This document shows, one piece after another, positions 1,246 through 47,987 of a stretch of 50,795 nt of DNA; within the stretch, counting starts at the first letter, position 1, and each line of letters begins with the position of its first letter. The notes below the pieces were generated by a model, which had not been told where the DNA came from, did no database searches, and was given only the letters and a program-made list of their open reading frames with translations. Source of the stretch: an uncultured Allofournierella sp. (GTDB lineage: Bacteria; Bacillota; Clostridia; Oscillospirales; Ruminococcaceae); assembly GCA_944382775.1 (NCBI GenBank), contig CALWNI010000011.1:1-50795 (forward strand). Direction: 5' to 3'. Both the position numbers and the translations under genes were made by a program.

Positions 1246-1273
1246 CACAATACTATGGTGTGAGGTGTTTCGC

Positions 1274-2740
1274 GTGGATTTTAACTCGTTGATTTTTTTG
1301 GGCTTTTTTGCAGCGGTTGCAGTGCTTACCTATTGTGTACCAAAACGCATAAAGCCCTATTTTTTGCTAGCGGCAAGCTATCTGTTTTATCTGTACAAAC
1401 CCGAAAATGCACGCTTAATTTGGGTGTTAATCTGTGCCACACTTCTTTCTTGGGCCGGGGGTATTCTGCTTGGCAGCAGTCGCATACATAACCTTTGGCT
1501 TCGGCGCGGCATTTTGCTGGGCAACATTTTATTTTGTGGCTTTTGTCTGTTTCAATACAAATACTATGATTTTTTCACCACCCTATGGTCGGATTTGGTA
1601 AAGGGCTTTGGTGGCGAATTTCACCCAAAATCACTCAACATTATTGCCCCACTTGGTTTAAGCTATTTTTTATTTCAAAGCATGGGCTATTTGTTTGATG
1701 TGTATCGGCACAAGCAAAAACCAATTTTAAACCTTGCCTATTATGCACTTTTTGTCAGCTTTTTCCCCTGTATTTTTACCGGCCCAATCGAACGGGCTCA
1801 TCACCTTGTTCCGCAATTTTTTCATCCACAACCGTTTCAATACCAACGCATGAGCGGCGGTGCATTTCGCATGTTATGGGGTTACTTTAAAAAGATGGTT
1901 CTTGCCGATGGCATTGGTGCGTTTGTGGGTACCATTTATGCCAACCCCGAAAAAGCAGCCGGCCCTTATCTTTTGGCGGCAAGCCTTTTGTTCAGCTATC
2001 AGCTGTATCTGGACTTTTCCGGCTGCTGCGACATTGCCATTGGCGGTGCTCGCATTCTAGGTTTTGAACTAACCGAAAACTTTCAACGCCCGTTTGCTGC
2101 CTGTAATTACGGCGAACTGTGGCGCAGATGGCACATTAGCTTGTCATCCTGGTTTCGAGATTATCTGTACATTCCACTGGGCGGCAATCGCTGCTCTGTG
2201 CTTCGCAACAGCATCAATACCATTGTTACCTTTTTGGTCAGCGGTTTATGGCATGGTGCCAGTTGGGGCTACATCATCTGGGGCACATTGAACGGTGTCA
2301 TTTTGGTAATCGGCAAACAAACACATTCCATCCGCCATCATTTGGAACCCCGAAATCCGCTGTATCACAGCCTTATTGTAAAGCACACCATAAAGCGCAT
2401 TTGTGTTTATCTGCTTTTTACCGCCTGTATCGTCTTTTTTGCTGCCGATTTGTACGGCGGCAATGCCTTTACCGTTTACAGCGGTTTGTTTCAAGGCTGG
2501 AACCTCAGCGCTTCTCAGCTGTTGCAAGGCTTTGCTGATAATGGTTTGCCCACTGCCATTCTTTATGTATTGGTAATCGGCTGCACCTGCGTGGAGCTGG
2601 TTGAATGGCGCGGCCCGGTTGCTTTGTGGATTCGCCGCCAGCCTGCTGTTGTTCGCTGGATTATCTACTACCTGCTGATTCTGGCCATTTTGTTTTTTGC
2701 TTCGTTTGGAAAATCTGCATTTATCTATCAAAACTACTAA
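1274..2740 (+). CDS. MBOAT-family O-acyltransferase (AlgI/DltB-like)
   Basis: Polytopic membrane enzyme of 488 residues that would pass an acyl group, usually acetyl, across the membrane to a surface polysaccharide. It has about ten hydrophobic segments. The family hallmarks are WRRWHISLSSWFRDYLYIPLGG-type sequence (His near 287) and SGLWHGASW, with the invariant catalytic His near residue 327. The frame is open from a GTG at 1265, but that codon lies in the ribosome site GAGGTG (1262-1267); GTG 1274 is correctly spaced. The next gene encodes an SGNH/DltD-like protein, the normal partner that completes transfer outside the membrane. The acceptor polymer is unknown. Confidence 0.92.
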   Translation: MDFNSLIFLGFFAAVAVLTYCVPKRIKPYFLLAASYLFYLYKPENARLIWVLICATLLSWAGGILLGSSRIHNLWLRRGILLGNILFCGFCLFQYKYYDFFTTLWSDLVKGFGGEFHPKSLNIIAPLGLSYFLFQSMGYLFDVYRHKQKPILNLAYYALFVSFFPCIFTGPIERAHHLVPQFFHPQPFQYQRMSGGAFRMLWGYFKKMVLADGIGAFVGTIYANPEKAAGPYLLAASLLFSYQLYLDFSGCCDIAIGGARILGFELTENFQRPFAACNYGELWRRWHISLSSWFRDYLYIPLGGNRCSVLRNSINTIVTFLVSGLWHGASWGYIIWGTLNGVILVIGKQTHSIRHHLEPRNPLYHSLIVKHTIKRICVYLLFTACIVFFAADLYGGNAFTVYSGLFQGWNLSASQLLQGFADNGLPTAILYVLVIGCTCVELVEWRGPVALWIRRQPAVVRWIIYYLLILAILFFASFGKSAFIYQNY

Positions 2741-2755
2741 AAGGGAGGGCATGCC

Positions 2756-4117
2756 ATGACATCACTGAAACCCCGCATTCATCCGATTTTGCGGCAGCTG
2801 CTCACCTTTGTATTGATTCTGGTTAAATTTCTTGTATTGGTTGTTCCTGTTTTGGTGTTTATGGTCTGGTTCAGCTATAAAGTTGATATCAGCGGCTTGT
2901 TTCAAGGAGAACTCGCCCCCCGTGAAGTGGCTAACATGCTACTAAACGGCGACACCGTATCCAACTATGACCAGATGGACGAACGCCAAGTTTTAAAACT
3001 TTATGTGCAAAATTTGTCGGAAGAGCAGGTTCCTGAAACCTTGGCACTGGGCTCCAGCCGAGTGCTGCAACTGACCAAAGAAATTGTCGGAACCGACAGT
3101 TACTATAACGCCGGGTTAAGCGGTGCGGGTGTTATGGACATCATGAACGCCTTTTACTTGTTTGACCAGGCAGACAAGTTGCCGAAAAATCTAATCATCG
3201 AGGTAGACCCATGGATTTTTAACGGAACCTCTGCCGATGACCTAAACCGCAATGCCGACCATGATTTGTTTGCAGAATTTTTAAAAAACGGTTTACACAT
3301 CGACTCGGATTATACCGCACCAGACACCACTGCCCGTTGGAAAGCACTGTTTGATCCTGCTTATTTTCAGGGTAATGTAAAGTATTATCTCAAACAAAAA
3401 AACAGCAACACCTCCACCAACAAAGACGGTTCGGAAATTCCGTTTCATGCCGTTACCGGAGATTTTGAAACGCTGGATTATGCCATCAAACGTCCCGATG
3501 GCAGCATTTATTATCCGGTGGAGTTCCGCACCTGGAGCTATGAGCAGGTAATGGCAGAAACACTGGTGCAAGCCGGCACGCTTTCTGCCATGCACGGCTT
3601 TGACGAAATGGACCCTTACTGGACCAATTTGTTTGAACAATTCATCTCTTATGTGCAAAGCAAAGGCATTCGGGTTGTGTTTTTGCTCACCCCATATCAT
3701 CCCTTTATCATCAAGCATGTGTACAACAACCCTCAAGGATTTGCCGGATTTTTTCAGGTAGAACCTTGGCTGCGTGAATATGCAGCACAACACAACATTC
3801 CCCTGTACGGCAGCTATCATGCCAGCCGTGTTGGTGTGCAGGAATGGCTCTTTTTTGACGGCATTCACTGCAAAGGCGAAGCCCTTCGCCTTATATTCCC
3901 CGGCATTACAGCGGCTTTGCAAAACGAGCAAACCGCTTACCAAATCGACTACTATAATACTTACAACGATAAGTACCCCAACCTGGTCAGTGAAGCATTG
4001 GTAGGCTCTACCGCCGACTGTTTGGTGGTGGACGAAGACTGGTTTAACCAAGCCAGTTTTGCCACCGGTACCGGAATCCCTTATTCCGACCAAATCGAGA
4101 TTCCCTCTGCTTCGTAA
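2756..4117 (+). CDS. SGNH-hydrolase-like/DltD-like partner of the MBOAT acyltransferase
   Basis: A 453-residue protein with one N-terminal membrane helix (about residues 13-40) and a large extracytoplasmic domain. It carries SGNH-type blocks: LALGSSRVLQ near 97-106 (candidate Ser nucleophile), YNAGLSGAG (oxyanion region), and FFDGIHCKG with Asp368 and His371 as a D-x-x-H catalytic pair. This resembles AlgX/DltD proteins that take the acyl group from MBOAT enzymes and place it on the polymer. It follows the MBOAT gene by 15 bases with GGAGGG as ribosome site. Whether it transfers or hydrolyses acyl groups cannot be told from sequence. Confidence 0.75.
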   Translation: MTSLKPRIHPILRQLLTFVLILVKFLVLVVPVLVFMVWFSYKVDISGLFQGELAPREVANMLLNGDTVSNYDQMDERQVLKLYVQNLSEEQVPETLALGSSRVLQLTKEIVGTDSYYNAGLSGAGVMDIMNAFYLFDQADKLPKNLIIEVDPWIFNGTSADDLNRNADHDLFAEFLKNGLHIDSDYTAPDTTARWKALFDPAYFQGNVKYYLKQKNSNTSTNKDGSEIPFHAVTGDFETLDYAIKRPDGSIYYPVEFRTWSYEQVMAETLVQAGTLSAMHGFDEMDPYWTNLFEQFISYVQSKGIRVVFLLTPYHPFIIKHVYNNPQGFAGFFQVEPWLREYAAQHNIPLYGSYHASRVGVQEWLFFDGIHCKGEALRLIFPGITAALQNEQTAYQIDYYNTYNDKYPNLVSEALVGSTADCLVVDEDWFNQASFATGTGIPYSDQIEIPSAS

Positions 4118-8719: not shown

Positions 8720-9262
8720 TTAATACGCTACACTTTGAATGGTCTCGCCATCCAGTGTTTTGGTGGTAAACACACCGTTTTCATACATCATATAACTGTG
8801 TGAACCATCTTTGGGAATCGATACGCTGCCCGGATTCAGAATCAAGGTATCGCCCTGCCACTCGGTATGTTTTACATGAACATGACCAAATACAAAGGCA
8901 CTGTGTGCAGGCATCGGGGGCAGATTTTGGGGGTTGAATTTATGGCCATGGGTAGCAAACAGCAATTTCCCCTCTTCCAGATAAATGGTTGTATAATCGG
9001 CCATTACCGGAAATTCCAACACCATTTGGTCCACTTCGGCTTCACAGTTTCCACGCACGGCAATAATCTTTTCCTTTAACCCATTCAGCATGGGAATAAC
9101 CTTTTTGGGTGCATAATCCTTGGGCAGGTCATTGCGGGGGCCGTGATACAGCAAATCACCCAACAGCAAGATTTTATCGGGGTTTTCCTGCTGAATTCGT
9201 TCCATCAGTTTTTCACAATAAAAAGCAGAGCCATGTAAATCAGAAGCAATCAATAATTTCAT
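8720..9262 (-). CDS. yfcE: YfcE/MJ0936-family metallophosphodiesterase
   Basis: A 180-residue calcineurin-like phosphoesterase. All five metal-binding blocks are present: SDLHG (Asp8, His10), GDLLYHGPRND (Asp36), GNCEAEVD (Asn72), THGHKF and FGHVHVKH, with NPGSVSIPKDG as in YfcE. Members of this subfamily hydrolyse model phosphodiesters, and the physiological substrate is not established. Its ATG overlaps the stop of the upstream polymerase-like gene (ATGA at 9262-9259), and luxS follows, so it is translationally linked to a glycan gene and a metabolic gene. Confidence 0.88.
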   Translation of the reverse strand: MKLLIASDLHGSAFYCEKLMERIQQENPDKILLLGDLLYHGPRNDLPKDYAPKKVIPMLNGLKEKIIAVRGNCEAEVDQMVLEFPVMADYTTIYLEEGKLLFATHGHKFNPQNLPPMPAHSAFVFGHVHVKHTEWQGDTLILNPGSVSIPKDGSHSYMMYENGVFTTKTLDGETIQSVAY

Positions 9263-10590
9263 TGTAGTTTCTCCTTCTTGAAAGCCTTTGCGTCAGATTT
9301 TGCTGCAAAACAAGGTTGTTCCTTGGGCCAATACAGCACGCCGCACAACAGCCACAACATCACGTTAACACAGGCCCATGTGATATGAATTTCCATTAAG
9401 CCATGGCATAAAATAACCAAACAGCAAGCTGCTTCGGTAAGATGTTTTTGAGCAAGCAAACGCCAAATAAGAAGCGAAAATGCCACCCACATTAACAAAC
9501 TGGCCACAGGACCGCTTAAAATCCAATGTTGTACATAGGCATTGTCCACCAGCATATCCGGGCTTCTCATCTGACCGGCAATGCGAAACGGCATTTCATT
9601 CAATGCCATCCAGCTTAACTCTACTCTACCGCTTAAAATGCGGTTTAAAGAAGTCATAAAGCCGGACTGCGGATCCCAGTTCATTGCAATCAGCACGCTT
9701 GCTGCCAACGCAACCAAGGGAGCAAGGCTTGCCAAAACACGAACCCACAACAGCTGAAAGAATTTGGGTGCCACCTGCATCACAAACAGTACTCCCACAA
9801 GCAAAAACAAACAAATGGAGGTTGCCCGGCTGTCCGGACCCAGGTCAGAAAATACTGCCAAGGCAAGCAAAACCGCAAAATCGTACCACTTAAAACGATG
9901 CAAACGCCGTAAACAGACATACATCAGCCCAAGCCCTAACAGGCAAGCACCAAAATAGTTAAACCAACCATATCCAAAACTATTTCTGGTTCGGCTTGTT
10001 TCCAAATCGTACAGGGTATCAATAATTCCAACGCAGGAACTAAGTGCAACCACCACCACGCTGGCAGTACCAACCGTAAAGCATACCGTTAAGGCTTTGC
10101 GCAGCGGAATATCCTTTGCTGCCATAAAAAACAGCACACCCATCATAATCCATTGGATGTGGTTATTAAAAAACACCCACCGCATAATAAAAAATATGCA
10201 AAACTGAACTGCGGTTTGCCAAGCAGAATATTTTGTGGTAAATAATATTTTGCTTAATAAACACAATGCTATGATATGATTTAATACAATGGTTCCTGTT
10301 TCATAAAGAAACGGCAGCCGTGTGCGATACAAACTGTTAATAAAAAAGATTTCAAATTGATAAATTGCTATCGCCACATAAAAAAGCCATGGAGCCACTT
10401 TGTTTCGTATTTGTATCCCCCATGAACCAAACAGCCAATGCTCTTGATTGAGATGCTGCCATGTGGTGTGCCAAGGCACATCTTTGGGGCATCGCATCAG
10501 CCGAACAACATACCATACACAACCTGCAAACATACCCAATAAAATAACATTTGCATAGGTGTATAGCCCATCAAGTAAAAATTGCCGCAA
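9259..10590 (-). CDS. Polytopic membrane protein, O-antigen ligase/polymerase-like
   Basis: A 443-residue membrane protein with about eleven hydrophobic segments. A longer polar loop (about residues 300-355) precedes the last membrane segments and contains NRILSGRVELSWMALNEM. That layout and the short motif DLGPDSRATS resemble Wzy/WaaL-type polysaccharide polymerases and ligases, but I see no invariant signature, so the call is tentative. The start is TTG 10590 with AAGGAG nine bases upstream. It lies 27 bases after the acyltransferase-kinase fusion gene and overlaps the phosphodiesterase start, so it belongs to the same operon. A general integral membrane transporter is the alternative. Confidence 0.6.
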   Translation of the reverse strand: MRQFLLDGLYTYANVILLGMFAGCVWYVVRLMRCPKDVPWHTTWQHLNQEHWLFGSWGIQIRNKVAPWLFYVAIAIYQFEIFFINSLYRTRLPFLYETGTIVLNHIIALCLLSKILFTTKYSAWQTAVQFCIFFIMRWVFFNNHIQWIMMGVLFFMAAKDIPLRKALTVCFTVGTASVVVVALSSCVGIIDTLYDLETSRTRNSFGYGWFNYFGACLLGLGLMYVCLRRLHRFKWYDFAVLLALAVFSDLGPDSRATSICLFLLVGVLFVMQVAPKFFQLLWVRVLASLAPLVALAASVLIAMNWDPQSGFMTSLNRILSGRVELSWMALNEMPFRIAGQMRSPDMLVDNAYVQHWILSGPVASLLMWVAFSLLIWRLLAQKHLTEAACCLVILCHGLMEIHITWACVNVMLWLLCGVLYWPKEQPCFAAKSDAKAFKKEKLQ

Positions 10591-10617: not shown

Positions 10618-12243
10618 TTAACTATACTTTTTCACAATTGCTTTCATCTGCTCAAACTGCTGTTCCATTTCTTCTGCTAAACGGAACTGCGTGCGTGCAC
10701 GCACCAGGTTATGGGTTGGATACTGTGTTTTAAAATAGGTATCACCCTGCAGATAATCGGTTAAAAAGCGCATACCGCATTCCAATGTTAAGATTTTTGC
10801 GCCCCATACCAGATTTTCTTTTTCCGCCGGGGTTAAAACATCGCCCGCACTCTCCAAGTAGCCTTTGGTATAGGCCTCAAACAATGCAATATCAAAATGA
10901 ACCTTGGACAAGTCCTGTTCATCTTCCGCAGCAGTAGACGCACCAAAACGAATGGAATCGCCAAAATCATTCAGGGATAAGCCAGGCATAATGGTATCCA
11001 GGTCAATGATACAAATGCCTTCTCCGGTATGTTCATCAAACAAGATGTTATTCAGCTTTGTATCGTTGTGAGTTACACGCAAAGGCAATGCACCTTGACG
11101 CACCTGCTCCATTAATACGCTGCAATCAGCCTTATGGTTTTGCACAAACTCAATTTCCGCCTTACAGGTTTTTGCTCTGTTTTTCACATCTTGGCGCAAT
11201 GCGCGTTGAAATGTTTTGAAACGGTCTTCCGTATCATGGAACTTGGGAATGGTTTCAAACAAGGTATCCGCCGGGTAGCCATCCAGCTGTTTCAAGAAAC
11301 GGCCAAAACTGCGGCCCGATTGATAAAACTGCTCCGGTTTTTCCACACTTTGATAGCAAATGGAATCCGGAATATAGTTGTAACAACGCCAAGGCTGACC
11401 TTCAGTATCTTCAAAATAGGTTTCGCCGGATTTTGTTTTAATATAGCTCAAGGTTTCTCGGTCCGGGTCGCCACCGTTTGCACGGATGCTTTGCCGCAGA
11501 TACTCGGTTACACCAAAAATATTTTCCATAACTTCGCGGGGATTTTTAAATACATTGCGATTCACGCGCTGTAATACATAACTCAGCTCATCCTCGCCGT
11601 TTTCGGTGGGCATAAACACCGCATAGGTTTCGTTGATATGCCCTGCCCCAAAGGGACGCACATAGCTGCACTGGTTGCCAAATCCAAAGGCATACAGGGC
11701 ATCTTCCAGCATCCAACTGTCCACGCCATCAATTTTGCGGCGTTTTGCAAAAATCACTTCGCCGGCCTCCACCTTACGAAATGCCTCTACATGGCAGTTT
11801 GCCTTTACCACACTGCCCAAACCAATGTGAACGCCTTCTTCCACCACGGTGTCATGGTCTACAATTGCACCACTGTTTACCAGGCAAGCTTCGCCCAACT
11901 TGGTTTTGGTGTTAATTACTGCACGCTGCATTACAAAACTACCGGCGCCAATCTCTGCACTGGGGCTTACCACTGCGCTGGGATGAATGATGGTGGGCAC
12001 AACAAAATCCGCTTCCAACAGATTTTTTACCCACTGCAAACGCATTTTATTGTTGCCAAAGGCAGCCACTGCACAGGGATACTCCTTGCGAAAATCCTTG
12101 TAATCCACCAGCTTGCCAATTACGTTGCTGTCTTTGCAGGCATCATCAAGCATTGCAATTTTATCAAATTGGCGGGTTGCCACAGCCGATTCGTAAACCA
12201 TGTGCCCAAACCCACCGGCACCTAAAATCAAAAGATTTGGCAT
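10618..12243 (-). CDS. Fusion: NeuD/PglD-like sugar O/N-acyltransferase + NahK-like sugar kinase (APH fold)
   Basis: A 541-residue two-domain protein. Residues 1-165 match NeuD/PglD enzymes: a Rossmann start LILGAGGFGH (8-13), then left-handed beta-helix hexapeptides with NSGAIVDHD and a candidate catalytic His130. Residues about 185-541 are an aminoglycoside-phosphotransferase/choline-kinase fold: RPFGAGHINETY as the nucleotide loop, VTHNDTKLNN as catalytic loop (Asp394), and IIDLDT with metal-binding Asp414/416. The kinase part resembles N-acetylhexosamine 1-kinase (NahK). It would therefore phosphorylate a free sugar and may acylate an (amino)sugar; the substrates are inferred. No stop or frameshift separates the domains. 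It is the first gene of the operon that ends with luxS. Confidence 0.82.
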   Translation of the reverse strand: MPNLLILGAGGFGHMVYESAVATRQFDKIAMLDDACKDSNVIGKLVDYKDFRKEYPCAVAAFGNNKMRLQWVKNLLEADFVVPTIIHPSAVVSPSAEIGAGSFVMQRAVINTKTKLGEACLVNSGAIVDHDTVVEEGVHIGLGSVVKANCHVEAFRKVEAGEVIFAKRRKIDGVDSWMLEDALYAFGFGNQCSYVRPFGAGHINETYAVFMPTENGEDELSYVLQRVNRNVFKNPREVMENIFGVTEYLRQSIRANGGDPDRETLSYIKTKSGETYFEDTEGQPWRCYNYIPDSICYQSVEKPEQFYQSGRSFGRFLKQLDGYPADTLFETIPKFHDTEDRFKTFQRALRQDVKNRAKTCKAEIEFVQNHKADCSVLMEQVRQGALPLRVTHNDTKLNNILFDEHTGEGICIIDLDTIMPGLSLNDFGDSIRFGASTAAEDEQDLSKVHFDIALFEAYTKGYLESAGDVLTPAEKENLVWGAKILTLECGMRFLTDYLQGDTYFKTQYPTHNLVRARTQFRLAEEMEQQFEQMKAIVKKYS

Positions 12244-24136: not shown

Positions 24137-25978
24137 TCATTCCATAACGGCTTCTTTCAAGTTTCGCAAATCGGCACTTTCGGAAAAATCTTCCCGATCT
24201 AAGGTTAGGCTAGGGTTATAATAGGGGTCACGGATTAACCCTTGGCGGGTAAAGCGGTCCACCAAGCGTTTTTGCTCCCCTGCAAAACGTTCTTTTTTCG
24301 CTTTGTCTTTTTCATCATTGCCACGGCTTTTGCTCTCATAATGATACAAACGGGCGTAAGGTGTCCAGACAATGCGATATCCTGCATCGCGTACCCGCAA
24401 GCAGAAATCCACATCGTTAAATGCCACGGTAAAGGCTTCATCCAGTCCTTGTATCTCATCGTAAACTTGGGTACGCACCAGCAAACAAGCCGCAGTAACT
24501 GCCGAAAAGTCCTGCACGGTGGCAATGCGGAACATGTAGCCGCTTCCGCCTGCTTTGCGGTATTTGTGGCTATGGCCTGCATATCCGCCTAAACCGGTAA
24601 TGATGCCTGCATGCTGAATGGTGTCATCGGGATAATACAGCATTGCACCGCAGATGGCTGCCCCGGGACGGCTGGCCTGCATGAGCATTTCGGTCAACCA
24701 CTCGCCATTGATGACTTCTACGTCATTGTTCAACAGCAACAAATACTCACCCTTGGCAAAGGTTCGGCCAAAATTATTGATGGCAGAAAAGTTAAAGCCA
24801 CCCTTATAGTACACCACATTACAATTGGGGTAACGGTGCTGCAACTGCTCGTAATAGGCAAAGGTCGCAGGGTCGGTGGAGTTATTCTCAATCACAATGA
24901 CCTCAAACCGCTGCCATGTGGTTTTTGTATAAATGGATTGCAGGCACTTTTCCAAGTCATCAATGTGGTCTTTGTTGGGGATTAAGATACTAACCAGCGG
25001 TTCGCCGGAAATGACCCAATCTACCTTATAGGTGCTGGGAAAAAGACCGTCGCGCACTTCACCTTGCTGTCCTGTACGCTGAAGATGTTCGCTAATGGCC
25101 TTTTTTGCTGCTTTTGCCACATAGGGCTTTGCCTCTACGCCGCCACTGGTGCTGCCGCTATGCACACGCCAATAATACAAAACTTGGGGTACATGTACAA
25201 TTTGTGCAGGCTGCAACTGTTCAATCAAGCGCAAAAACAGGTCATGATCCTGGCTTCCGTCACATTCCGACCGTTCGCCGCCCACACGCCAAAACAATTC
25301 ACGCTGGAATACCGCCAAATGGCAAATATAATTACAGCACAGCAGGTAATCCGGGGCATAGTTTGGCTTAAAATGCCCCACCATAGGCTTTTTGATGTTT
25401 TTGGTGAATAAGGCCTCATCGCTGTACAAAAACAGTGCTCCGGTTTTTTCAATGGTTTTTTGCATGGTATAAACGGCATGAGGGGCCAAGAGATCATCGT
25501 GATCTGCCAAAGCCAGATACTCGCCTGTGGCAAGTTCTGCCGCTGCATTGGTATTGGCACTGATGCCAAGATTTTGCACCGTTTTATAACAAATGCGCCC
25601 CTGTGCAGACTCCATTGCCTGCTTTACCAGCTGTTCTACCTGGGGCTGATGCTCTGCATCCGAGGCATCGGCAAGGCATAGCTGCCAGTTTGGGCTGGTT
25701 TGATTTAACACGCTGTTCAAAAGCTCTTGCAGATAGCGTTTTGGGGTGTTATAAAGCGGTACGCAAATCGAGATGGTTGGCCCGGGCATGGTTTGTTTGC
25801 ACAACGCTCTTTGCTGTTCCAGCACCTGCTTTTTTGGCAAATACCGGGCTTTTTTTCCAAAAAAGCGACGGCGTACAAAACCGGCTGCACGTTTGCAAAC
25901 CGGGCCTAAGCCCTCTTCGCGCAGAACCTGAACCGCATAACCGAACAGCTCTTTCATTCGTTTTATTCTTAAATGCAC
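24137..25978 (-). CDS. Double-domain GT2 glycosyltransferase (rhamnosyltransferase-like), paralogue 1
   Basis: A 613-residue cytosolic enzyme with two tandem GT-A domains. The first (about residues 65-280) begins ISICVPLYNTPKRYLQELL and has an acidic LADHDD metal site; the second (about 325-560) begins VSILIPNKDHIDDLEKCL and has LLLNNDVE, as in rhamnosyl/galactofuranosyl transferases. A basic N-terminal region of about 60 residues precedes the domains. The start is GTG 25978 after AAAGGTGG; GTG 25987 overlaps that site. It is the last transferase of the polysaccharide operon and closely resembles its upstream neighbour, so the two probably add alternating or adjacent residues. Confidence 0.88.
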   Translation of the reverse strand: MHLRIKRMKELFGYAVQVLREEGLGPVCKRAAGFVRRRFFGKKARYLPKKQVLEQQRALCKQTMPGPTISICVPLYNTPKRYLQELLNSVLNQTSPNWQLCLADASDAEHQPQVEQLVKQAMESAQGRICYKTVQNLGISANTNAAAELATGEYLALADHDDLLAPHAVYTMQKTIEKTGALFLYSDEALFTKNIKKPMVGHFKPNYAPDYLLCCNYICHLAVFQRELFWRVGGERSECDGSQDHDLFLRLIEQLQPAQIVHVPQVLYYWRVHSGSTSGGVEAKPYVAKAAKKAISEHLQRTGQQGEVRDGLFPSTYKVDWVISGEPLVSILIPNKDHIDDLEKCLQSIYTKTTWQRFEVIVIENNSTDPATFAYYEQLQHRYPNCNVVYYKGGFNFSAINNFGRTFAKGEYLLLLNNDVEVINGEWLTEMLMQASRPGAAICGAMLYYPDDTIQHAGIITGLGGYAGHSHKYRKAGGSGYMFRIATVQDFSAVTAACLLVRTQVYDEIQGLDEAFTVAFNDVDFCLRVRDAGYRIVWTPYARLYHYESKSRGNDEKDKAKKERFAGEQKRLVDRFTRQGLIRDPYYNPSLTLDREDFSESADLRNLKEAVME

Positions 25979-26004
25979 AAAAACCACCTTTTCTGCCCAA
26001 TCAA

Positions 26005-27882
26005 TTACTTCAGGCCATAATTTTCAAACAAAAGATTAAAATGACGATTGTAATAGGGATCGCCCTGTTCAATCAAATCATGATAGGTTTCAATAAAGTT
26101 TGCTTTTTCCCGTTCATACCGCTTTTGGTTTTCGCTCAGGGTATCCAAACCACGGCTTTTGCTTTCGTGATGATATGCCTGTGCAAATGGGGTGAAAACA
26201 TTCAGCAATCCTTTTGCATGCAATTTCAAACACAAGTCCACATCGTTGTATGCCACAGCAAACTTTTCTTCGTCCAAACCGCCGCAAGCATCGTACAGCT
26301 CGGCTTTTACCATAAGGCATGCGCCCGTTACCGCCATCATATTCTGCGGTGTGGCAAGGCGGTATAAATCCCCTGCCGATGCTCTGGGGTGGCTCTTATG
26401 GCTGTGGCCTGCGGTTCCGTTGATTCCTAAAAATACACCGGCATGCTGAATGGTATCGTCAGGGAAATACAGCTTTGCACCCACACAGCCCACATCCGAA
26501 CGCTGGCTATACATCAGCATTTCCACCAGAAAACCGTCGGTTAGCAGTTCCACATCGTTATTTAACAGCAGCAGCTGCTCGCCCTTTGCGTAACGGCGGC
26601 CAAAATTATTGATGGCAGAAAAGTTAAAGCTGCCCTCATACTTAACTACCTGTAAGCAGGAGAACTTCTTTTTGGCTTCTTCGTAATAGGCAAAGGTTGC
26701 AGGGTCAGTGGAATTGTTTTCAATCACAATCACTTCAAAACGATTGTATCCGGCATGCCGATATAGGCTTTCCAAACAGCGGGACAAATCTTCCACATGG
26801 TCTTTGTTGGGAATTAAAATGCTAATAAGCGGATGACTTGTCAATTCATATCGTACCCGATAGGCACCGGGGCAGCCTTCGATGCGTTCGGCACGACCTT
26901 CCAGGCCAATGCGCTCCAAATGGGCATCAATGGCACGTTCGCCTGCCGCCAGTGCATAGGGCTTTGCCTCCATGGAAGAAGCGGTGGAAGCCGCATGACT
27001 GCGCCAGATATACAGTGCATAGGGGATGTGGGTAATTTTCTTTGCTTTTTCGGTTAAGCGCAAAATCAATTCAAAATCTTGGCTGCCGTCGTATTTCACA
27101 CGCTCACCGCCGCCTGCCTTGCCAAACAATTCCTTGCTAAAGGCCGACAGATGGGTAATATAGTTGCATCCCCGCAGATAATCCGGCGAAAAATCTGGTT
27201 TAAAATGATAATCCACCAACTGCTTTAAATCGGCACTTAGCACGATTTCATCGGAATAGACAAAGTCTGCACCGTCTACCGCCGCCTTTGCAACCTCAAA
27301 CAAGGCATTTTTGTACAGTACATCGTCATGGTCCAGCAGAGTGAACCAATCACCGGTAGCCAGTGCAAATCCTGCGTTGGTATTGGCACTAATGCCTTTG
27401 TTTTCTGCCAGCTTTTGATAGACAATGCGAGTATCGGCAGCGGCATATTCTTGAATGGTTTTGCCCACTTCTTCATGGGCTTCGTCCGATGCATCTGCCA
27501 AAACCAGCTGCCACTTTTCATAGCTTTGCTGGGTAACGCTTTCGATCATATCCCGCAAAAAGGGCAACGGGGTATTGTATACCGGTACAATTACACTGAT
27601 GGTAGGGCCACCGGGTACCCCTGCCGCCCGTTGTTCCCGCAGCATACGGCGGGTGGGCAAATCGGCCCGATACTGCCAAGTATCCCGATGCAACGCCAAA
27701 TTGATTCGAAAACTAATTTCACGCCATAAGGCTTCTGCCCCCTGTTCCCGCGCAACCTGCACAGACCAACCAAATACTTTGCTGATGTGTTTGGGGTTTA
27801 AAAGCCGTTTTGCCATTCCGCCAATGCTGTCTTTTTTTGCAACATCTGCCGGCAACGCCTGCTCTTGTTTATCCTTTGCCAT
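26005..27882 (-). CDS. Double-domain GT2 glycosyltransferase (rhamnosyltransferase-like), paralogue 2
   Basis: A 625-residue enzyme with the same two-domain GT-A plan: ISVIVPVYNTPLPFLRDMI (first), LLDHDD, then LISILIPNKDHVEDLSRCLESLY (second) and LLLLNNDVELL. Long blocks are near-identical to the downstream gene, for example EVIVIENNSTDPATFAYYE, which shows tandem duplication followed by divergence. The start is ATG 27882 with AGGGGA about nine bases upstream; the frame is open 20 codons further but without a ribosome site. It lies 80 bases after the ABC-exporter ATPase gene. The sugar and linkage are unknown. Confidence 0.88.
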   Translation of the reverse strand: MAKDKQEQALPADVAKKDSIGGMAKRLLNPKHISKVFGWSVQVAREQGAEALWREISFRINLALHRDTWQYRADLPTRRMLREQRAAGVPGGPTISVIVPVYNTPLPFLRDMIESVTQQSYEKWQLVLADASDEAHEEVGKTIQEYAAADTRIVYQKLAENKGISANTNAGFALATGDWFTLLDHDDVLYKNALFEVAKAAVDGADFVYSDEIVLSADLKQLVDYHFKPDFSPDYLRGCNYITHLSAFSKELFGKAGGGERVKYDGSQDFELILRLTEKAKKITHIPYALYIWRSHAASTASSMEAKPYALAAGERAIDAHLERIGLEGRAERIEGCPGAYRVRYELTSHPLISILIPNKDHVEDLSRCLESLYRHAGYNRFEVIVIENNSTDPATFAYYEEAKKKFSCLQVVKYEGSFNFSAINNFGRRYAKGEQLLLLNNDVELLTDGFLVEMLMYSQRSDVGCVGAKLYFPDDTIQHAGVFLGINGTAGHSHKSHPRASAGDLYRLATPQNMMAVTGACLMVKAELYDACGGLDEEKFAVAYNDVDLCLKLHAKGLLNVFTPFAQAYHHESKSRGLDTLSENQKRYEREKANFIETYHDLIEQGDPYYNRHFNLLFENYGLK

Positions 27883-27962
27883 ATATTCGATTCCCCTGTT
27901 TGAAAACAGCCAAGAGCAACCGTGCCGCTTGTTGTGCCGCACAGTACCTTGGCTGTCGTGTT

Positions 27963-28703
27963 TTATTGCTCTCGTGTTGTGTGTTTATATGCTTCGCATA
28001 CTTCTTGGGTTGGGCCATTCATTTTAATGCGGCCATGCTCAAGCCATGCCACCTTGTTGCACATACGCTCGATTTGTTCAATGGAATGGCTAACCAAAAT
28101 AACAGTAGTGCCGCCGCTCATCAATGCCTGCATGCGCTTTTCGCACTTTTCCTGGAACAAAAAGTCACCTACTGCCAAAATTTCATCTGCAATGAGGATA
28201 TCCGGTTTGGTGATGGTTGCCACAGCAAATGCCAAACGGGCCACCATGCCGCTGGAATAGTTTTTCAGCGGTACATCCAAAAATTCGCGCAGCTCGCTGA
28301 ACTCTACAATTTCCTCAAAGTGGGCATCGATATACTTGGGGCTAAAGCCCAATACCGTACCGTTCAGATAGATGTTCTCGCGGGCTGTCAGGTCCATATC
28401 AAAACCTGCACCAAGCTCAATCAACGGCGCAATGGTACCTCGCACACGGCAGGTACCGCTGCTGGGTTTGTATACGCCGGAAATTACCTTTAACAAGGTG
28501 GATTTTCCGCTGCCGTTTAAGCCAATCAGACCGTAAAAATCACCGGGCTGAACGTCCAGGCTTACTTCTTTGAGTGCATAAAACTCATCAAACCGCAGCG
28601 TACCTTTTACCAGCTGCAAAAAATATTCTTTTAGACTTTCGCTTTTTTCTTTTGCCAGATTAAAACGCATGGAAACGTTGTCTACCTGAATAATGGGTTC
28701 CAT
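27963..28703 (-). CDS. Polysaccharide/teichoic acid ABC exporter ATP-binding protein (Wzt/TagH-like)
   Basis: A 246-residue ATPase that pairs with the permease encoded just upstream to flip a finished lipid-linked glycan across the membrane. Walker A GLNGSGKST, signature YSSGMVARLAFAVA (the MxxRLAF form typical of Wzt/TagH/KpsT) and Walker B PDILIADEILAVGD are intact. It has only the nucleotide-binding domain, without the C-terminal carbohydrate-binding domain that long Wzt proteins use to select capped chains. ATG 28703 has AAAGGAGG upstream. Confidence 0.92.
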   Translation of the reverse strand: MEPIIQVDNVSMRFNLAKEKSESLKEYFLQLVKGTLRFDEFYALKEVSLDVQPGDFYGLIGLNGSGKSTLLKVISGVYKPSSGTCRVRGTIAPLIELGAGFDMDLTARENIYLNGTVLGFSPKYIDAHFEEIVEFSELREFLDVPLKNYSSGMVARLAFAVATITKPDILIADEILAVGDFLFQEKCEKRMQALMSGGTTVILVSHSIEQIERMCNKVAWLEHGRIKMNGPTQEVCEAYKHTTREQ

Positions 28704-28718
28704 CAACAGCGCCTCCTT

Positions 28719-29519
28719 TTACATATACAGGACAAATTTGTCCTGTGTTTTCTTAAATACAAACAGACCCAGTGCCAACATGACCAGTGCCCATACACCG
28801 CAGATTGCAACTTGTGCCCCACTGAGCAACTGGCCATACAGAACCGTTGCACGGAATGCGGTAATGTACTGGTAAATGGGGTTGCAATTAATTGCAGCAA
28901 TCAGCAGCGGAACACTTGCAAACTGCTGGGCAGGATCATAGAAAATGGCCGAAAACCACATTAAAATGGTGGTAAACACTTCCCACAAATGAATCACATC
29001 GCGGAAGAACACCGCCAACGCCGATAAAATCATGCCTGCACCCAAGCTAAATACTGCTAAGGTCAGCAAGGGGTAAATGCCAAGGAATATGGTTGCATGC
29101 AGCGGTGTGCCGGTAACTACCATAACAATGACCAAAGCAATAAAGCTAAACAGGCAGTTGACCATGGCAAAGCAAATTTTTTGCAGCGGAAAAATATATT
29201 TGGGAATATACACCTTGCGCAGCAGCAATGCGTTGCCCATAATGCTGGACATAGCCATAGTGGTTGCTTCACGGAAAAAGGTGAACAACAACTGACCGAT
29301 TACCAGATAAACGGCATAATTGCTGCCTGCACCGCCGCGAATGCCGCCCATCATGGGGGCAAATACCACAAACATAACGGCACACATCATCAAGGGGTTC
29401 AGTACGCTCCATGCCACACCCAAAATACTGCGGCGATACTTCAGCTTAAAATCACGGCTGATTAAATTGTATAACAGATACCGATAACGCAAAAAGTCCT
29501 GTACGTATAATTTTAACAT
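28719..29519 (-). CDS. Polysaccharide ABC exporter permease (Wzm/TagG-like, ABC-2 type)
   Basis: A 266-residue ABC-2 membrane protein with six hydrophobic segments. The N-terminal FLRYRYLLYNLISRDFKLKYRRSILGVAWS pattern (shortened here as RDFKLKYRRSILGVAWS) and the late WFSAIFYDPAQ are typical of Wzm/TagG/RfbA permeases. It lies 15 bases before its ATPase gene and 13 bases after the epimerase gene. It forms the channel for lipid-linked polysaccharide or teichoic acid export. Confidence 0.92.
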   Translation of the reverse strand: MLKLYVQDFLRYRYLLYNLISRDFKLKYRRSILGVAWSVLNPLMMCAVMFVVFAPMMGGIRGGAGSNYAVYLVIGQLLFTFFREATTMAMSSIMGNALLLRKVYIPKYIFPLQKICFAMVNCLFSFIALVIVMVVTGTPLHATIFLGIYPLLTLAVFSLGAGMILSALAVFFRDVIHLWEVFTTILMWFSAIFYDPAQQFASVPLLIAAINCNPIYQYITAFRATVLYGQLLSGAQVAICGVWALVMLALGLFVFKKTQDKFVLYM

Positions 29520-29532
29520 CTATCTTGCTCCC

Positions 29533-30099
29533 TTAAAAGTTTGCAAAGCAATCAAAATTCTGCTCAGCAAACGGGATATGCTTTTTATCCTTTTCGCTCA
29601 GCATATAAGCGCAGCCACAGTCGGGCCATTCCACCTTTACGGTGGGGTCATTGTAAGGAATGCCGCCGTCCGATGTGGGGTCGTAATAATCGGTGCATTT
29701 ATAGCAGAATTCTGCCTCATCACTCATAACCAAAAAGCCGTGGGCAAAGCCCTTGGGTACATAAAACTGCTTTTTGTTTTCGGCACTCAGGGTAATGCCA
29801 ACCCACTGACCAAAGGTTTCGCTGTTGGGGCGGCAGTCCACCGCAACGTCAAACACTTCGCCTTTGGTTACACGCACCAATTTCCCCTGGGTATGTGCAG
29901 TTTGAAAATGCAACCCACGCAATACACCGCGAACCGACTTAGACTGGTTATCCTGCACGAATTCATCGGTGATGCCTGCTGCTGCAAACTCTTCTTTTTG
30001 AAAGGTTTCCATAAAATAGCCGCGGTCGTCGCCAAACACAGTGGGCTCTACAATCAGAACGCCCGGCAATTTTGTAGCAATAAAATTAAACTTACCCAT
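29533..30099 (-). CDS. rfbC: dTDP-4-dehydrorhamnose 3,5-epimerase (RmlC-like)
   Basis: A 188-residue cupin enzyme that epimerises dTDP-4-keto-6-deoxyglucose toward L-rhamnose. The catalytic His motif VLRGLHFQ, the KLVRVTKGEVFDVAVD core and the C-terminal CTDYYDPTSDGGIPYND match RmlC at normal length. The start is ATG 30099 with AGGAG nine bases upstream; an in-frame ATG at 30117 precedes the site. RmlA, RmlB and RmlD are not in the window. Beside QdtA/QdtB it may supply dTDP-rhamnose, or act on the shared 4-keto intermediate. Confidence 0.9.
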   Translation of the reverse strand: MGKFNFIATKLPGVLIVEPTVFGDDRGYFMETFQKEEFAAAGITDEFVQDNQSKSVRGVLRGLHFQTAHTQGKLVRVTKGEVFDVAVDCRPNSETFGQWVGITLSAENKKQFYVPKGFAHGFLVMSDEAEFCYKCTDYYDPTSDGGIPYNDPTVKVEWPDCGCAYMLSEKDKKHIPFAEQNFDCFANF

Positions 30100-30120
30100 T
30101 GTTTTCTTCTCCTGCATTGT

Positions 30121-30543
30121 TCACTGCTGTGCAATTTCGGCACAAAAGGCATCGTAATCTCGGATATACTCCTGCCCGTCGTAATGCTCGCTGGAAAGAA
30201 CCAGCAGCACGCTATCCGCCGAAAAATCATACATATCTTTCCACACCATACGGGGAATGTAAATGCCTGTGTTGGGCTGCTCCAAACAATACACATGCTC
30301 CTGCCCCAAACCATCGGCCACGCGCACCTTACTTTGCCCTGCCACATTAATTAAAACAAATTCGCTGTTGCGGTTTGCGTGCTGGCCACGAATTACTGTA
30401 GCATCGCTGCCATACATATAGAATACACGTTTGATTTCAAAGGGAACATCCTGCAAGCCTTCTACCACAATCAGACTGCCCCGTTCATCGCCCAAATCAC
30501 CAAAACGCAGCATTTTTACCTTATCATAATTTTGGTTTTTCAT
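30121..30543 (-). CDS. dTDP-4-keto-6-deoxyhexose 3,4-ketoisomerase (QdtA/FdtA, WxcM-like cupin)
   Basis: A 140-residue cupin-fold enzyme that shifts the keto group from C4 to C3 of dTDP-4-keto-6-deoxyglucose. The family blocks are GDERGSLIVVEGLQDVPFEIKRVF and TVIRGQHANRNSEFVLINVAGQ; QdtA/FdtA have RGxHAH at this position, so the second His is replaced by Asn here. The start is ATG 30543, whose ATGA overlaps the aminotransferase stop. The product would be Qui3N (QdtA-type) or Fuc3N (FdtA-type); sequence alone does not separate them. Confidence 0.85.
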   Translation of the reverse strand: MKNQNYDKVKMLRFGDLGDERGSLIVVEGLQDVPFEIKRVFYMYGSDATVIRGQHANRNSEFVLINVAGQSKVRVADGLGQEHVYCLEQPNTGIYIPRMVWKDMYDFSADSVLLVLSSEHYDGQEYIRDYDAFCAEIAQQ

Positions 30544-31646
30544 GTTGTGGGCTCCCATTCATTTATTGCATCAATGACATAATGCTGTTCTTCTTCGGTC
30601 ATACCGTTGTACATGGGCAAACTCAGCACCTCGTCGGCAAACCGCTCCGCAATGGGAAAATCCCCACGCTTTAGCCCCAAATAGGCATACGCTTCGGACA
30701 AATGCGGCGGAATGGGATAGTGAATAATGGTACCAATGCCCCGTTCTTTCAAGTAGTCTGCCAATTGGTCGCGCCCTTTGGGTACATGAATCACATACTG
30801 ATGCCAGGTAGAATCTGCCTCCTTGTGAATTTTAGGCAGACGGATATGGGGATTTTTTAATTCCTCATTGTATAATTCCGCAATTACACAACGCTCTGCA
30901 TTAAATTCATCCAGATGCTTTAACTTTACACGCAGCAAACCTGCCTGCAATTCATCCAAGCGGGAGTTTGTGCCCACCATTTTATTGTGGTATCGTTTTT
31001 CGCTGCCGTAGTTGCGAAATACCCGGAACATCTGCGCCAACTCATCGTTATCGGTTACAATGCAGCCTGCATCGCCAAAGGCACCGCAGCCCTTGGTGGG
31101 ATAAAACGAAAAACAGCCCACATCGCCAAAGGTACCGGCGGTTTTTCCGTTCCAATGGTTGCCGTGGCTTTGTGCGCAATCTTCCACTACCTTTAAATTG
31201 TGTTTGCGGGCTATCTGCATGATTTTGGTCATATCGCAGGCTTGTCCGTACAAATGAACCGCCAAAATTGCTTTGGTTTTGGGGGTAATGGCAGCTTCAA
31301 TTTTATCGGCATCCAGGTTATCGTACTCATCGGGCTCTACAAATACCGGGGTTGCTCCGTTCATGGAAATGCCCATTACACAGGCAATGTATGCGTTTGC
31401 ACACACAATCACTTCGTCGCCGGCACCAATTCCCAGCAGCCGAAAACTAATCCATAAGGCATCCAACCCACTGGCCAGACCTACACAGTGTTTTGCTCCG
31501 ATGTAAGCAGCCCATTCTTGTTCAAATGCAGCCACTTCCTTGCCCAAAACATACCAGCCACTGCGGAGTACCTGAATGGCTTTTTCTTCGTATTCTGCTG
31601 CATGCAAGCCGTATTGACGCCCCAAATCGTTGGGCATGATATTCAA
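30540..31646 (-). CDS. DegT/DnrJ/EryC1 aminotransferase (QdtB/FdtB-like sugar transaminase)
   Basis: A 368-residue PLP enzyme that aminates C3 of a dTDP-3-keto-6-deoxyhexose to give a 3-amino-3,6-dideoxyhexose. The PLP Lys185 is in SFYPTKGCGAFGDAG, with VVEDCAQSHG (Asp for PLP N1) and NSRLDELQAG typical of the VioA/QdtB group. The start is TTG 31646 with GGGAGGT seven bases before; an ATG at 31637 is too far from it. It is the first gene of the operon and is coupled to the ketoisomerase gene by ATGA overlap, the normal Qdt/Fdt gene order. Confidence 0.9.
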   Translation of the reverse strand: MNIMPNDLGRQYGLHAAEYEEKAIQVLRSGWYVLGKEVAAFEQEWAAYIGAKHCVGLASGLDALWISFRLLGIGAGDEVIVCANAYIACVMGISMNGATPVFVEPDEYDNLDADKIEAAITPKTKAILAVHLYGQACDMTKIMQIARKHNLKVVEDCAQSHGNHWNGKTAGTFGDVGCFSFYPTKGCGAFGDAGCIVTDNDELAQMFRVFRNYGSEKRYHNKMVGTNSRLDELQAGLLRVKLKHLDEFNAERCVIAELYNEELKNPHIRLPKIHKEADSTWHQYVIHVPKGRDQLADYLKERGIGTIIHYPIPPHLSEAYAYLGLKRGDFPIAERFADEVLSLPMYNGMTEEEQHYVIDAINEWEPTT

Positions 31647-45807: not shown

Positions 45808-45846
45808 GTAATCTGTATAACTATGTTTGAAACGAGGGATTTTTGT

Positions 45847-46965
45847 ATGGCACCGATTCGGGTTTTACACTGTGTAGCAGGGCTTGCGCACGGCGGCTAT
45901 GAAAGCCTTTTGATGAACCTGTATCGCTGCATTGACCGCCGGGTTGTGCAGTTTGATTTTGTAAGTTCTTTTCCCGGTGTATACGAACCCGAAATCCTCG
46001 AGCTGGGCGGCGTGATTCATCGGATTCCCTTTATCACGCAAAAAGGGCCTTTTGTTTATACCCATGCACTGAACCAGGTGCTTACTGCATCGCCTCAATA
46101 CGCCATTGTGCACTCTCACATGGACAAATTCAGCGGCCTTGTAATGCGGCAAGCAAAAAAAGCCGGTATTCCTTTTCGCATTGCCCACAGCCACAACACA
46201 CAAAACGAAGGCGGCCTTGCCTTTCAGGTGGTAAAAAACTACTATGGCAACATGGTTTTGCCCAATGCGACCCATCTGTTTGCCTGTTCCCAAGCGGCAG
46301 CTGATTGGATGTTTGGCTCACAATCTTCCCAAGCGCATATCCTGTTCAACGGCATTGACCCCCAGCGTTTTGCCTTTTCTCCCAGTGTGCGGGCGCAGGT
46401 TCGCTCGGAATGGAACCTTGCCCCGGACACGCTGGTATTCGGTCATGTGGGGCGTTTTGTGGAACAAAAAAACCATGCGCGAATCCTTTCTATTTTTTCC
46501 GAGATTCTTCGCAAACATCCCAACAGCGTTTTGCTGTTAGCCGGTACCGGCCCGCTGCAAACCGCCATAGAGCAAAAAGCGGCAGAACTGGGAATTCAGC
46601 GGCAGGTTTTCTTTTTGGGGGCACGCCAAGACATCCCCCAGCTTTTGCAGGGAATGGACTGCTTTTTATTCCCTTCTTTGCACGAAGGCTTGCCGGTTAC
46701 ACTGATCGAAGCGCAGGCTTCCGGCTTACCCATTACGGCTGCTTCTACCATAACAAGCGAAGTCGCCATCACTTCGCTGGTGCAGTTTTACTCTTTGCAA
46801 GACAACAACGATGCTTGGGCATCTGCTGCCCTGGCGCAAGCACTGGAACACCGCAACCTGCGCACCTCGCCAAGCAAACAAATTGCCGATGCCGGATACG
46901 ATATTCGGCAAACCGCCGCTTGGCTTACCGAATTTTATCAAACGCTTATTGCCTCGCAATCGTAA
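45847..46965 (+). CDS. Glycosyltransferase family 4 (EpsF-like)
   Basis: A 372-residue GT-B fold transferase. The acceptor-side N-terminus has CVAGLAHGGYESLLMNL, and the donor-side C-terminus has FGHVGRFVEQKNHARIL and the retaining-enzyme motif PSLHEGLPVTLIEAQASGLP (E-x7-E). It resembles EpsF/GT4 enzymes of exopolysaccharide clusters. The start is ATG 45847 after CGAGGG; the frame begins at ATG 45823. It is the first gene of a run of at least five transferases. The sugar is unknown. Confidence 0.9.
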   Translation: MAPIRVLHCVAGLAHGGYESLLMNLYRCIDRRVVQFDFVSSFPGVYEPEILELGGVIHRIPFITQKGPFVYTHALNQVLTASPQYAIVHSHMDKFSGLVMRQAKKAGIPFRIAHSHNTQNEGGLAFQVVKNYYGNMVLPNATHLFACSQAAADWMFGSQSSQAHILFNGIDPQRFAFSPSVRAQVRSEWNLAPDTLVFGHVGRFVEQKNHARILSIFSEILRKHPNSVLLLAGTGPLQTAIEQKAAELGIQRQVFFLGARQDIPQLLQGMDCFLFPSLHEGLPVTLIEAQASGLPITAASTITSEVAITSLVQFYSLQDNNDAWASAALAQALEHRNLRTSPSKQIADAGYDIRQTAAWLTEFYQTLIASQS

Positions 46966-46986
46966 TTGCGTTAGGAGGATTTTTTC

Positions 46987-47967
46987 ATGACGGAACAACC
47001 GCTTGTTTCTGTAATTGTTCTGGTCTACAACACCGGAGAATATCTGCAACCCTGCTTGCAAAGCATTGCGGAACAAACCTATCAAAATCTGGATGTTTTG
47101 CTGATTGATAACGGCAGCAAAGACGGTTCCGAGCTTTTGTGCGACCGTTTTTCTCAAAACGACCCTCGCTTTCGCACCATTCACCAAGAAAACCTTGGCA
47201 TCATTGGCGGACGAGGCACCGGCGTAACCAACAGCAAAGGGGATTTTATCGCCTTTGTGGATGGCGACGATTTGCTGCATCCCAAAATGATTGAACTGCT
47301 GGTGCAGGAATGCCAAAAAACCGGGCAACCTGTTTCGGGTTGTCGGTTCATTCCCTTTTTCGGCCCTCCGCCGGAACCGGAGTCCCAACCCAAAGAATAT
47401 TTGGTGTTTGAACATCCCAATCATCTGGATGCACTGCTGCATGACAAGCGTGTGGAGTATAGCCTTTGCAACAAACTGTACGCCCGCCATTTGTTTGATG
47501 ATGTACCCTTTTACTCCCCCGTTGTGTACAACGAAGATTTGTATTTAAACTGGAACATCTTGCAGCACGCAGGCGGTATGGCATTTGCTGATTTTATCGG
47601 CTACTACTACCGCCAGCATGCCAACTCCACCACCCATCGCCCTTTAAAAGAGCGTGTGCTGCAAGACCAGATTTTTGTGGCAAAAACCATCCGCAGTTCG
47701 GCGCAAAACAGCTCCTTGGAAACTTCGGCGGAAGCATTCTATTATGAAAAACTGCTGTATCTGAACAGTATGATTCTGCGGCAAGCCCATTCCAAAGAAT
47801 TTACCGCCGACCATAAGGCACTGAAACAGGAAATTCGCCAGAACATAAAGGCAATCTTAAAAAATGCCCGCCTTTCCAAAAACATGAAGCTGGTTGCACT
47901 GCTTACCTGTTGGGGCGGTGTGTTTTACCATGCACTGTGCCGCTTAATGCTCACCGACCGTCGGTAA
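46987..47967 (+). CDS. Glycosyltransferase family 2
   Basis: A 326-residue GT-A transferase: VSVIVLVYNTGEYLQPCLQSI start, DVLLIDNGSKDGS, FVDGDDLLHPKMIELL (DxD metal site near residue 91) and a basic C-terminal helix region with NIKAILKNARLSKNMKL. It resembles EpsH/WfgS-type GT2 enzymes of polysaccharide loci. The ribosome site AGGAGG precedes ATG 46987 by seven bases. It lies 21 bases after the GT4 gene, in one operon. Confidence 0.9.
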   Translation: MTEQPLVSVIVLVYNTGEYLQPCLQSIAEQTYQNLDVLLIDNGSKDGSELLCDRFSQNDPRFRTIHQENLGIIGGRGTGVTNSKGDFIAFVDGDDLLHPKMIELLVQECQKTGQPVSGCRFIPFFGPPPEPESQPKEYLVFEHPNHLDALLHDKRVEYSLCNKLYARHLFDDVPFYSPVVYNEDLYLNWNILQHAGGMAFADFIGYYYRQHANSTTHRPLKERVLQDQIFVAKTIRSSAQNSSLETSAEAFYYEKLLYLNSMILRQAHSKEFTADHKALKQEIRQNIKAILKNARLSKNMKLVALLTCWGGVFYHALCRLMLTDRR

Positions 47968-47987
47968 CCTTTTTTGTGAGGTACGCT

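Follow-up and report, generated by a model that had tools for sequence, protein, structure and literature searches.

A NeuD/PglD-like acyltransferase domain fused to an N-acetylhexosamine 1-kinase-like domain in Allofournierella and other genomes

A left-handed-helix acetyltransferase is joined to a sugar-activating domain in the bifunctional enzyme GlmU, where the activating domain is a uridylyltransferase instead of an ATP kinase, and where both the domain order and the families differ from those of the protein described here. The GlmU models in NCBIfam match our protein weakly, and a Pfam search found no NTP_transferase (pyrophosphorylase) domain of the GlmU type in it. The closest architectural precedent is Neisseria PglB, in which, as passages of PMC6959607 describe it, a PglD-type domain is likewise fused to another enzyme of the same glycan pathway, a phospho-sugar transferase. 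The solved kinases of the NahK/LnpB type from B. longum and B. infantis (4ocv, 4wh1) are chains of 354 to 379 residues that consist of the kinase only; an excerpt of PMC8106489 assigns NahK to the lacto-N-biose pathway. For PglD and Pcryo_0637, the relevant section of PMC8040287 reports that two Asp residues hold the UDP of the UDP-sugar, and that the residues for UDP-sugar binding and catalysis are Ser11, Asp40, Asp41 and His142 in Pcryo_0637, equivalent to Ser13, Asp35, Asp36 and His125 in PglD. The protein described here pairs two such families, both already known. We found no earlier description of the pairing in the open-access papers that we searched, nor NeuD and NahK named together there; the initial annotation, too, knew of no characterisation of this exact fusion.

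The fusion gene lies at 10618..12243 on the minus strand of the window, by which we mean the whole 50,795-nucleotide stretch of an uncultured Allofournierella sp. contig that was analysed. It is a single open frame of 541 codons plus stop, with no internal stops; the initial annotation had left its strand unstated. Residues 1-165 (11749..12243, minus strand) form a NeuD/PglD-like acyltransferase domain, composed of PglD_N and, in the model, about 4.7 turns of left-handed beta-helix. A junction follows at residues 166-180 (11704..11748, minus strand), and residues 181-541 (10621..11703, minus strand) form a complete NahK-like N-acetylhexosamine 1-kinase domain. Pfam matched PglD_N (PF17836) at residues 3-75 (46.6 bits, cut-off 23.4), Hexapep (PF00132) at 114-147 (30.3 bits, cut-off 27) and APH at 196-446 (59 bits, cut-off 23.2). 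In a PDB sequence search the kinase half retrieved Bifidobacterium NahK (E 4.4e-101), while the N-terminal half retrieved the Neisseria PglB acetyltransferase domain 4m98 (E 1.9e-23) as well as PerB and PglD. An AlphaFold2 model, for which 59 sequences were aligned (29 fusions, 20 stand-alone kinases and 10 stand-alone NeuDs), contains both folds with a mean pLDDT of 94.7 and a pTM of 0.74. Over the whole kinase, about 360 columns, identity to the solved Bifidobacterium NahK structures is 46-48%, with motifs and fold shared (TM 0.90-0.92 by target length). The fold comparison listed 50 structures, of which none is described as containing both domains. Pfam, the PDB matches and the model thus bear out the one-frame fusion that the initial annotation had read from the sequence, and the protein is a genuine two-domain protein in which a NeuD/PglD-like helix domain is joined to a complete NahK domain.

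An APH-superfamily kinase joined to an acetyltransferase also recalls AAC(6')-APH(2''), and by that analogy the protein might be a bifunctional aminoglycoside-modifying enzyme. We strongly disfavour this reading and consider it exceedingly improbable, because the kinase, 46-48% identical to NahK, shares only 12-14% identity with any aminoglycoside or spectinomycin phosphotransferase among the same 50 structures, and because the acetyltransferase is a left-handed beta-helix, with no GNAT domain in the Pfam search.

The fusion is uncommon yet stable. Among 197 genomes of the family, the fusion protein has matches in 74 (E 1e-10 or better); 16 of the genomes, counting the source genome of the window, carry the fusion uninterrupted. 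An independent collection gave 22 matching loci, 16 of them full-length fusions, with Fournierella massiliensis DSM 100451, Gemmiger spp., Drancourtella massiliensis and Ruminococcus turbiniformis among the carriers. At the order level (394 genomes) there was a full-length match in three genomes among the matches listed, all three of the window's family. A class-level search with the NeuD part alone matched 10 of 391 genomes; the other nine frames are 169-232 aa long, too short to include the kinase. For comparison we used 29 fusions, namely the window copy and 28 from other genomes, of which 13 of the 29 come from the independent collection only. Left out were L035, L036 and L041, which lie on the same contigs as L067, L070 and L063, and L066, which has the kinase only.

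The 28 other copies are 60-88% identical to the window copy and none is interrupted, so the fusion is no frameshift. Within the junction, I171 and G173 are invariant in all 29 copies and the internal Met178 varies; together with the 29 uninterrupted copies, this rules out a frameshift, an assembly error or an internal restart as the source of the fusion. Residues invariant in the N-terminal domain of every copy include G8, G10, G11, G13, L32-D33-D34 (12142..12150, minus strand), G63, N65, R68, D129-H130-D131 (11851..11859, minus strand; H130 is the predicted active-site histidine) and H139. The kinase motifs H392-N393-D394 (11062..11070, minus strand), with D394 aligned to Asp208 of B. longum NahK, and D414-L415-D416 (10996..11004, minus strand), aligned to residues 228-230 of the same enzyme, are likewise constant in 29/29. 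In kinases of this fold, the DLD motif forms the Mg site. Loss of motif residues among relatives is therefore ruled out; the active-site histidine and the HND and DLD motifs named by the initial annotation are present throughout, and neither a frameshift or stop at the junction nor a loss of catalytic residues, the concerns it had raised, occurs in any of the 29 copies. The ratio dN/dS was 0.016-0.297 for the NeuD part (computable for four of eight pairs) and 0.040-0.137 for the kinase part (five of eight), the remaining pairs giving no usable dS. Both halves are under purifying selection for the pairs where dN/dS could be computed.

Carriers of the fusion mostly keep a stand-alone NahK as well, often near a GH112 (lacto-N-biose phosphorylase) gene, from which we conclude that the fusion is a second, specialised NahK, a paralogue apart from the NahK of the lacto-N-biose/galacto-N-biose pathway. 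In the family sample, all fusion genomes but G025 and G052 (14 of 16) have a stand-alone NahK, and in 11 of the 16 it lies at most 10 kb from a GH112 gene, which in G008 and G047 is a fragment; among the 13 further fusion genomes, nine have a second, kinase-only match. GH112 is present in 13/16 fusion genomes as compared with 0/14 control genomes, and in all 13 that have it the fusion is on another contig or more than 1 Mb away. Contig C43 of the window's own genome encodes a stand-alone NahK, 59% identical to the fused kinase, next to an NTP_transferase gene; GH112 is 7.4 kb away. At a threshold that we set, 17 positions separate fused from stand-alone kinases. None falls in HND, DLD or GDSIRFGA, which makes an N-acetylhexosamine the most likely substrate of the fused kinase.

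A kinase tree of 51 rows places all 29 fused kinase domains on one side of one branch (support 96/93). Since they form one supported clade, the fusion probably arose once and spread later. Five copies, from Blautia, Sellimonas, Drancourtella, R. turbiniformis and Eubacterium ER2, nest together within this clade; metagenome bins account for several of these genomes, and the dataset assigns only the Blautia and Sellimonas rows among the five to Lachnospiraceae. Presumably Drancourtella, R. turbiniformis and Eubacterium ER2 are Lachnospiraceae in GTDB too. In a NeuD tree of 44 rows, a run that raised long-branch warnings, the fused rows need two changes, with the stand-alone NeuD of G012 (L076), on a long branch, nested among them. 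This stand-alone protein has either split off from the fusion or been misplaced. In L043, L044, L045, L048, L063, L064 and L069, the gene immediately upstream of the fusion encodes a further short NeuD that stands alone. In the Ruthenibacterium-type loci, these upstream genes belong to a different part of the NeuD tree from the fused domain, and a recent tandem duplication as the origin of the fused NeuD is therefore unsupported.

The N-terminal domain shares the PglD_N fold, the left-handed helix, the active-site His and the Asp pair with PglD, the Neisseria PglB acetyltransferase domain and Pcryo_0637 (3bsy, 4m98, 7l7z), but differs from them in its attached kinase and in its length. Its model has 14 short helix strands between residues 85 and 164, about 4.7 turns rather than six, and lacks the C-terminal turns of the CoA site. 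For Pcryo_0637, PMC8040287 reports in the section consulted six complete helix turns, the last segment of which, with a cis-proline, closes over CoA. Against the NCBIfam model TIGR03570 (NeuD/PglD/VioB), the domain scores 127.5 bits, below the cut-off of 160.8, matching profile positions 1-162 of 202. Because of this score and the missing last turns of the CoA site, an acyl-CoA donor is putative. Both Asp residues (D33 and D34) and the His (H130) are kept in 29/29 fusions, and the Ser that contacts ribose and phosphate in Pcryo_0637 and PglD is, in our reading of the alignment, a Gly (G10) in the fusion. An invariant His is no proof of base catalysis, since in the related QdtC, as partial text of PMC2943079 reports, His mutants lost only part of their activity. 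We infer that the N-terminal half works like a NeuD/PglD acyltransferase, and do not place it in TIGR03570.

A short helix without the C-terminal turns of the CoA site, in a domain that retains its nucleotide-binding residues, could also be what is left of an enzyme that now trimerises the kinase or senses a UDP-sugar on its behalf, and is no longer an efficient acyltransferase. We think such a regulatory role unlikely given that D129-H130-D131 is invariant in all 29 fusions. In addition, eight of nine loci examined for this purpose encode short NeuDs that stand alone, measure 148-178 aa and have a DH(D/E) motif, so the shortness was not caused by fusion. None was called in L078, which, like L098, L105 and L114 among others, had poor-looking gene calls from the codon-usage caller, making the counts of short NeuD and hexapeptide genes weak in these loci.

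The retained Asp pair, which would contact the nucleotide (UDP) by comparison with the residues described in PMC8040287, points to a nucleotide sugar as the likely acceptor, rather than the free sugar or the 1-phosphate of the kinase. This bears on a second possibility, in which the two domains act consecutively as in GlmU: a hexosamine, free or 1-phosphorylated, would be acetylated by the N-terminal domain, the 1-phosphate would come from the kinase, and a housekeeping uridylyltransferase would use the resulting HexNAc-1-phosphate. Across the 29 loci no gene is adjacent to the fusion in every one, as would be expected of such a self-contained module, and the B. infantis and B. longum NahK enzymes do weakly accept glucosamine. 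The conversions given in an excerpt of PMC6264712, 15.0% for B. infantis and 8.4% for B. longum with 15 uM enzyme, nevertheless make glucosamine a poor NahK substrate, which argues mildly against phosphorylation before N-acetylation. As D33-D34 are invariant and match the UDP-binding residues of nucleotide-sugar acetyltransferases, we regard consecutive action as unlikely, although it ranks next after the reading preferred below and ahead of the regulatory role.

Our preferred reading, to which we give about an even chance, is a bifunctional enzyme that makes an N-acetylhexosamine-1-phosphate and acylates a UDP-amino sugar, both for surface glycans. It is the best reading in light of the domains and their solved relatives, the invariant residues, the kinase clade, dN/dS, the stand-alone NahK of most carriers and a partial association with glycan genes. 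By homology, the C-terminal NahK would phosphorylate a free N-acetylhexosamine of the GlcNAc or GalNAc type at C1 with ATP. The N-terminal domain, judged by its fold and invariant residues and probably trimeric like its relatives, would transfer acetyl, or a different acyl, to a UDP-linked or, less likely, dTDP-linked sugar, with an amino or a hydroxyl as the accepting position. The two domains would then stand at the start (the anomeric phosphate) and the end (the decorated nucleotide sugar) of one line of surface-glycan precursors, with a uridylyltransferase encoded elsewhere presumably acting between both steps. The coupling of sugar 1-phosphorylation with acylation that was suggested by the initial annotation is plausible on these grounds. 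We also speculate on a salvage-and-decorate module, in which the 1-kinase and the UDP-sugar acyltransferase share one polypeptide so that a NeuD-bound UDP-sugar reports to the kinase, and in which the short NeuD is a kind of acyltransferase whose site for the acyl donor is reduced or of another sort; this elaboration is doubtful.

Downstream of the fusion by 27 bp is a gene for a WaaL/Wzy-like membrane protein of 443 aa (9259..10590, minus strand), which overlaps by 4 bp a gene for a YfcE-type metallophosphoesterase (8720..9262, minus strand). The membrane protein matched no Pfam family. Its model has a mean pLDDT of 89.4, and its best Foldseek match, the WaaL O-antigen ligase, is weak (E 0.017, probability 1.00, TM 0.42-0.45); the second is an FtsW complex (E 0.11), and there were no matches at E 0.001 or better. 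The YfcE gene lies at most 1.5 kb downstream of the fusion in 13/29 loci, a count that is unchanged within 6 kb, while the WaaL/Wzy-like gene is found downstream within 6 kb in 8/29, with several loci ending sooner. Searching whole genomes, with the single protein as query in the family sample and a profile in the 13 further genomes, we found a WaaL/Wzy-like gene in 10 of the 29 fusion carriers (8/16 and 2/13, respectively) and none in the other 19. The synteny with a polymerase-like gene to which the initial annotation had drawn attention is therefore real in the window but does not extend to most carriers. Its absence from 11 of the 13 further genomes rules out the WaaL/Wzy-like protein as an obligate partner.

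The WaaL/Wzy-like gene occurs in 13 of the 197 family genomes, eight with the fusion and five with a stand-alone short NeuD (G012, G054, G110, G151 and G189). For this count we chose eight fusion-free genomes as having a stand-alone short NeuD, based on matches reaching at least residue 160 at 38% identity or more; weaker or cut matches, such as those in G185, G099, G074 and G126, were not counted. The set with a fusion or a short NeuD thus numbers 24/197, and its association with the WaaL/Wzy-like gene has a Fisher p of 3.5e-14, or 8/8 and p 1.1e-8 by genus, collapsing to genus being the only adjustment for kinship made in any of the association counts given here. The stand-alone short NeuD of G012 adjoins the Wzy-like gene (L076/L144), and in G008 the Wzy-like gene is beside a gene of the Bac_transf family of initiating sugar transferases. 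The membrane protein accompanies short NeuDs, but the fusion does not require it.

A glycan locus at 24137-31646 of the window encodes two tandem double-GT2 proteins, an ABC exporter, RmlC, FdtA and a DegT aminotransferase, in a gene order that is conserved in L099, L100, L101, L103 and L106. FdtA (PF05523) and the aminotransferase, FdtB-like by position (together 30121..31646, minus strand), are a possible source of amino sugar. With FdtA, the aminotransferase and RmlC at 29.5-31.6 kb, the NeuD domain might supply a missing N-acetyltransferase of FdtC type for this locus, converting a dTDP-3-amino-3,6-dideoxyhexose to its N-acetyl form. No hexapeptide acetyltransferase was flagged in the locus or its five counterparts, albeit by a crude repeat count that gave zero flags in all 21 stretches and is weak for that reason. 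FdtA scores over the family cut-off in 10/16 fusion genomes as compared with 10/181 others (20/197 in total, leaving out four genomes with weaker matches). It is absent, however, from four near-complete fusion genomes (G134, G018, G142 and G031), which weakens an FdtC role as the general function, and the D33-D34 pair resembles that of UDP-sugar enzymes. We consider the FdtC role very unlikely.

Returning to the bifunctional enzyme, the surface-glycan setting that was proposed for it by the initial annotation holds in part of its range. RmlC is commoner in carriers (15/16, versus 71/181 other genomes), which indicates that fusion genomes are rich in glycan genes in general; DegT (PF01041) is useless as a marker, being present in 16/16 fusion genomes and 14/14 controls. 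The gene after the fusion in L037 is of the LytR_cpsA_psr family. In L075 a stand-alone short NeuD is flanked by Polysacc_synt_2/Polysacc_synt_C genes on one side and a UDP-GlcNAc 2-epimerase gene on the other, and in L077 one adjoins an Acyl_transf_3 gene. The neighbours in these three loci point to surface polysaccharides. In Ruthenibacterium-type loci, by contrast, the gene after the fusion encodes a Cys/Met family PLP enzyme (checked in L048) and is not a glycan gene. The glycan-context evidence therefore covers only part of the range of the fusion, outside the copies of Blautia, Sellimonas, Drancourtella and R. turbiniformis. If the preferred reading is true, a NahK known from milk- and mucin-glycan salvage has been duplicated and joined to an acyltransferase, and gut Bacillota have retained the product, which would let salvaged amino sugars pass straight into their own surface glycan. 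The fusion also offers, for direct assay, an enzyme whose NeuD domain is short and whose acyl-donor site is putative.

Two further regions of the window deserve mention. At 1265-4117, a gene for an MBOAT O-acyltransferase is followed by one for a 453-aa protein with no Pfam match, a pair that recalls those of polysaccharide O-acetylation. Near the right end of the contig, at 45823-50488, four adjacent glycosyltransferase genes apparently form a second glycan locus.
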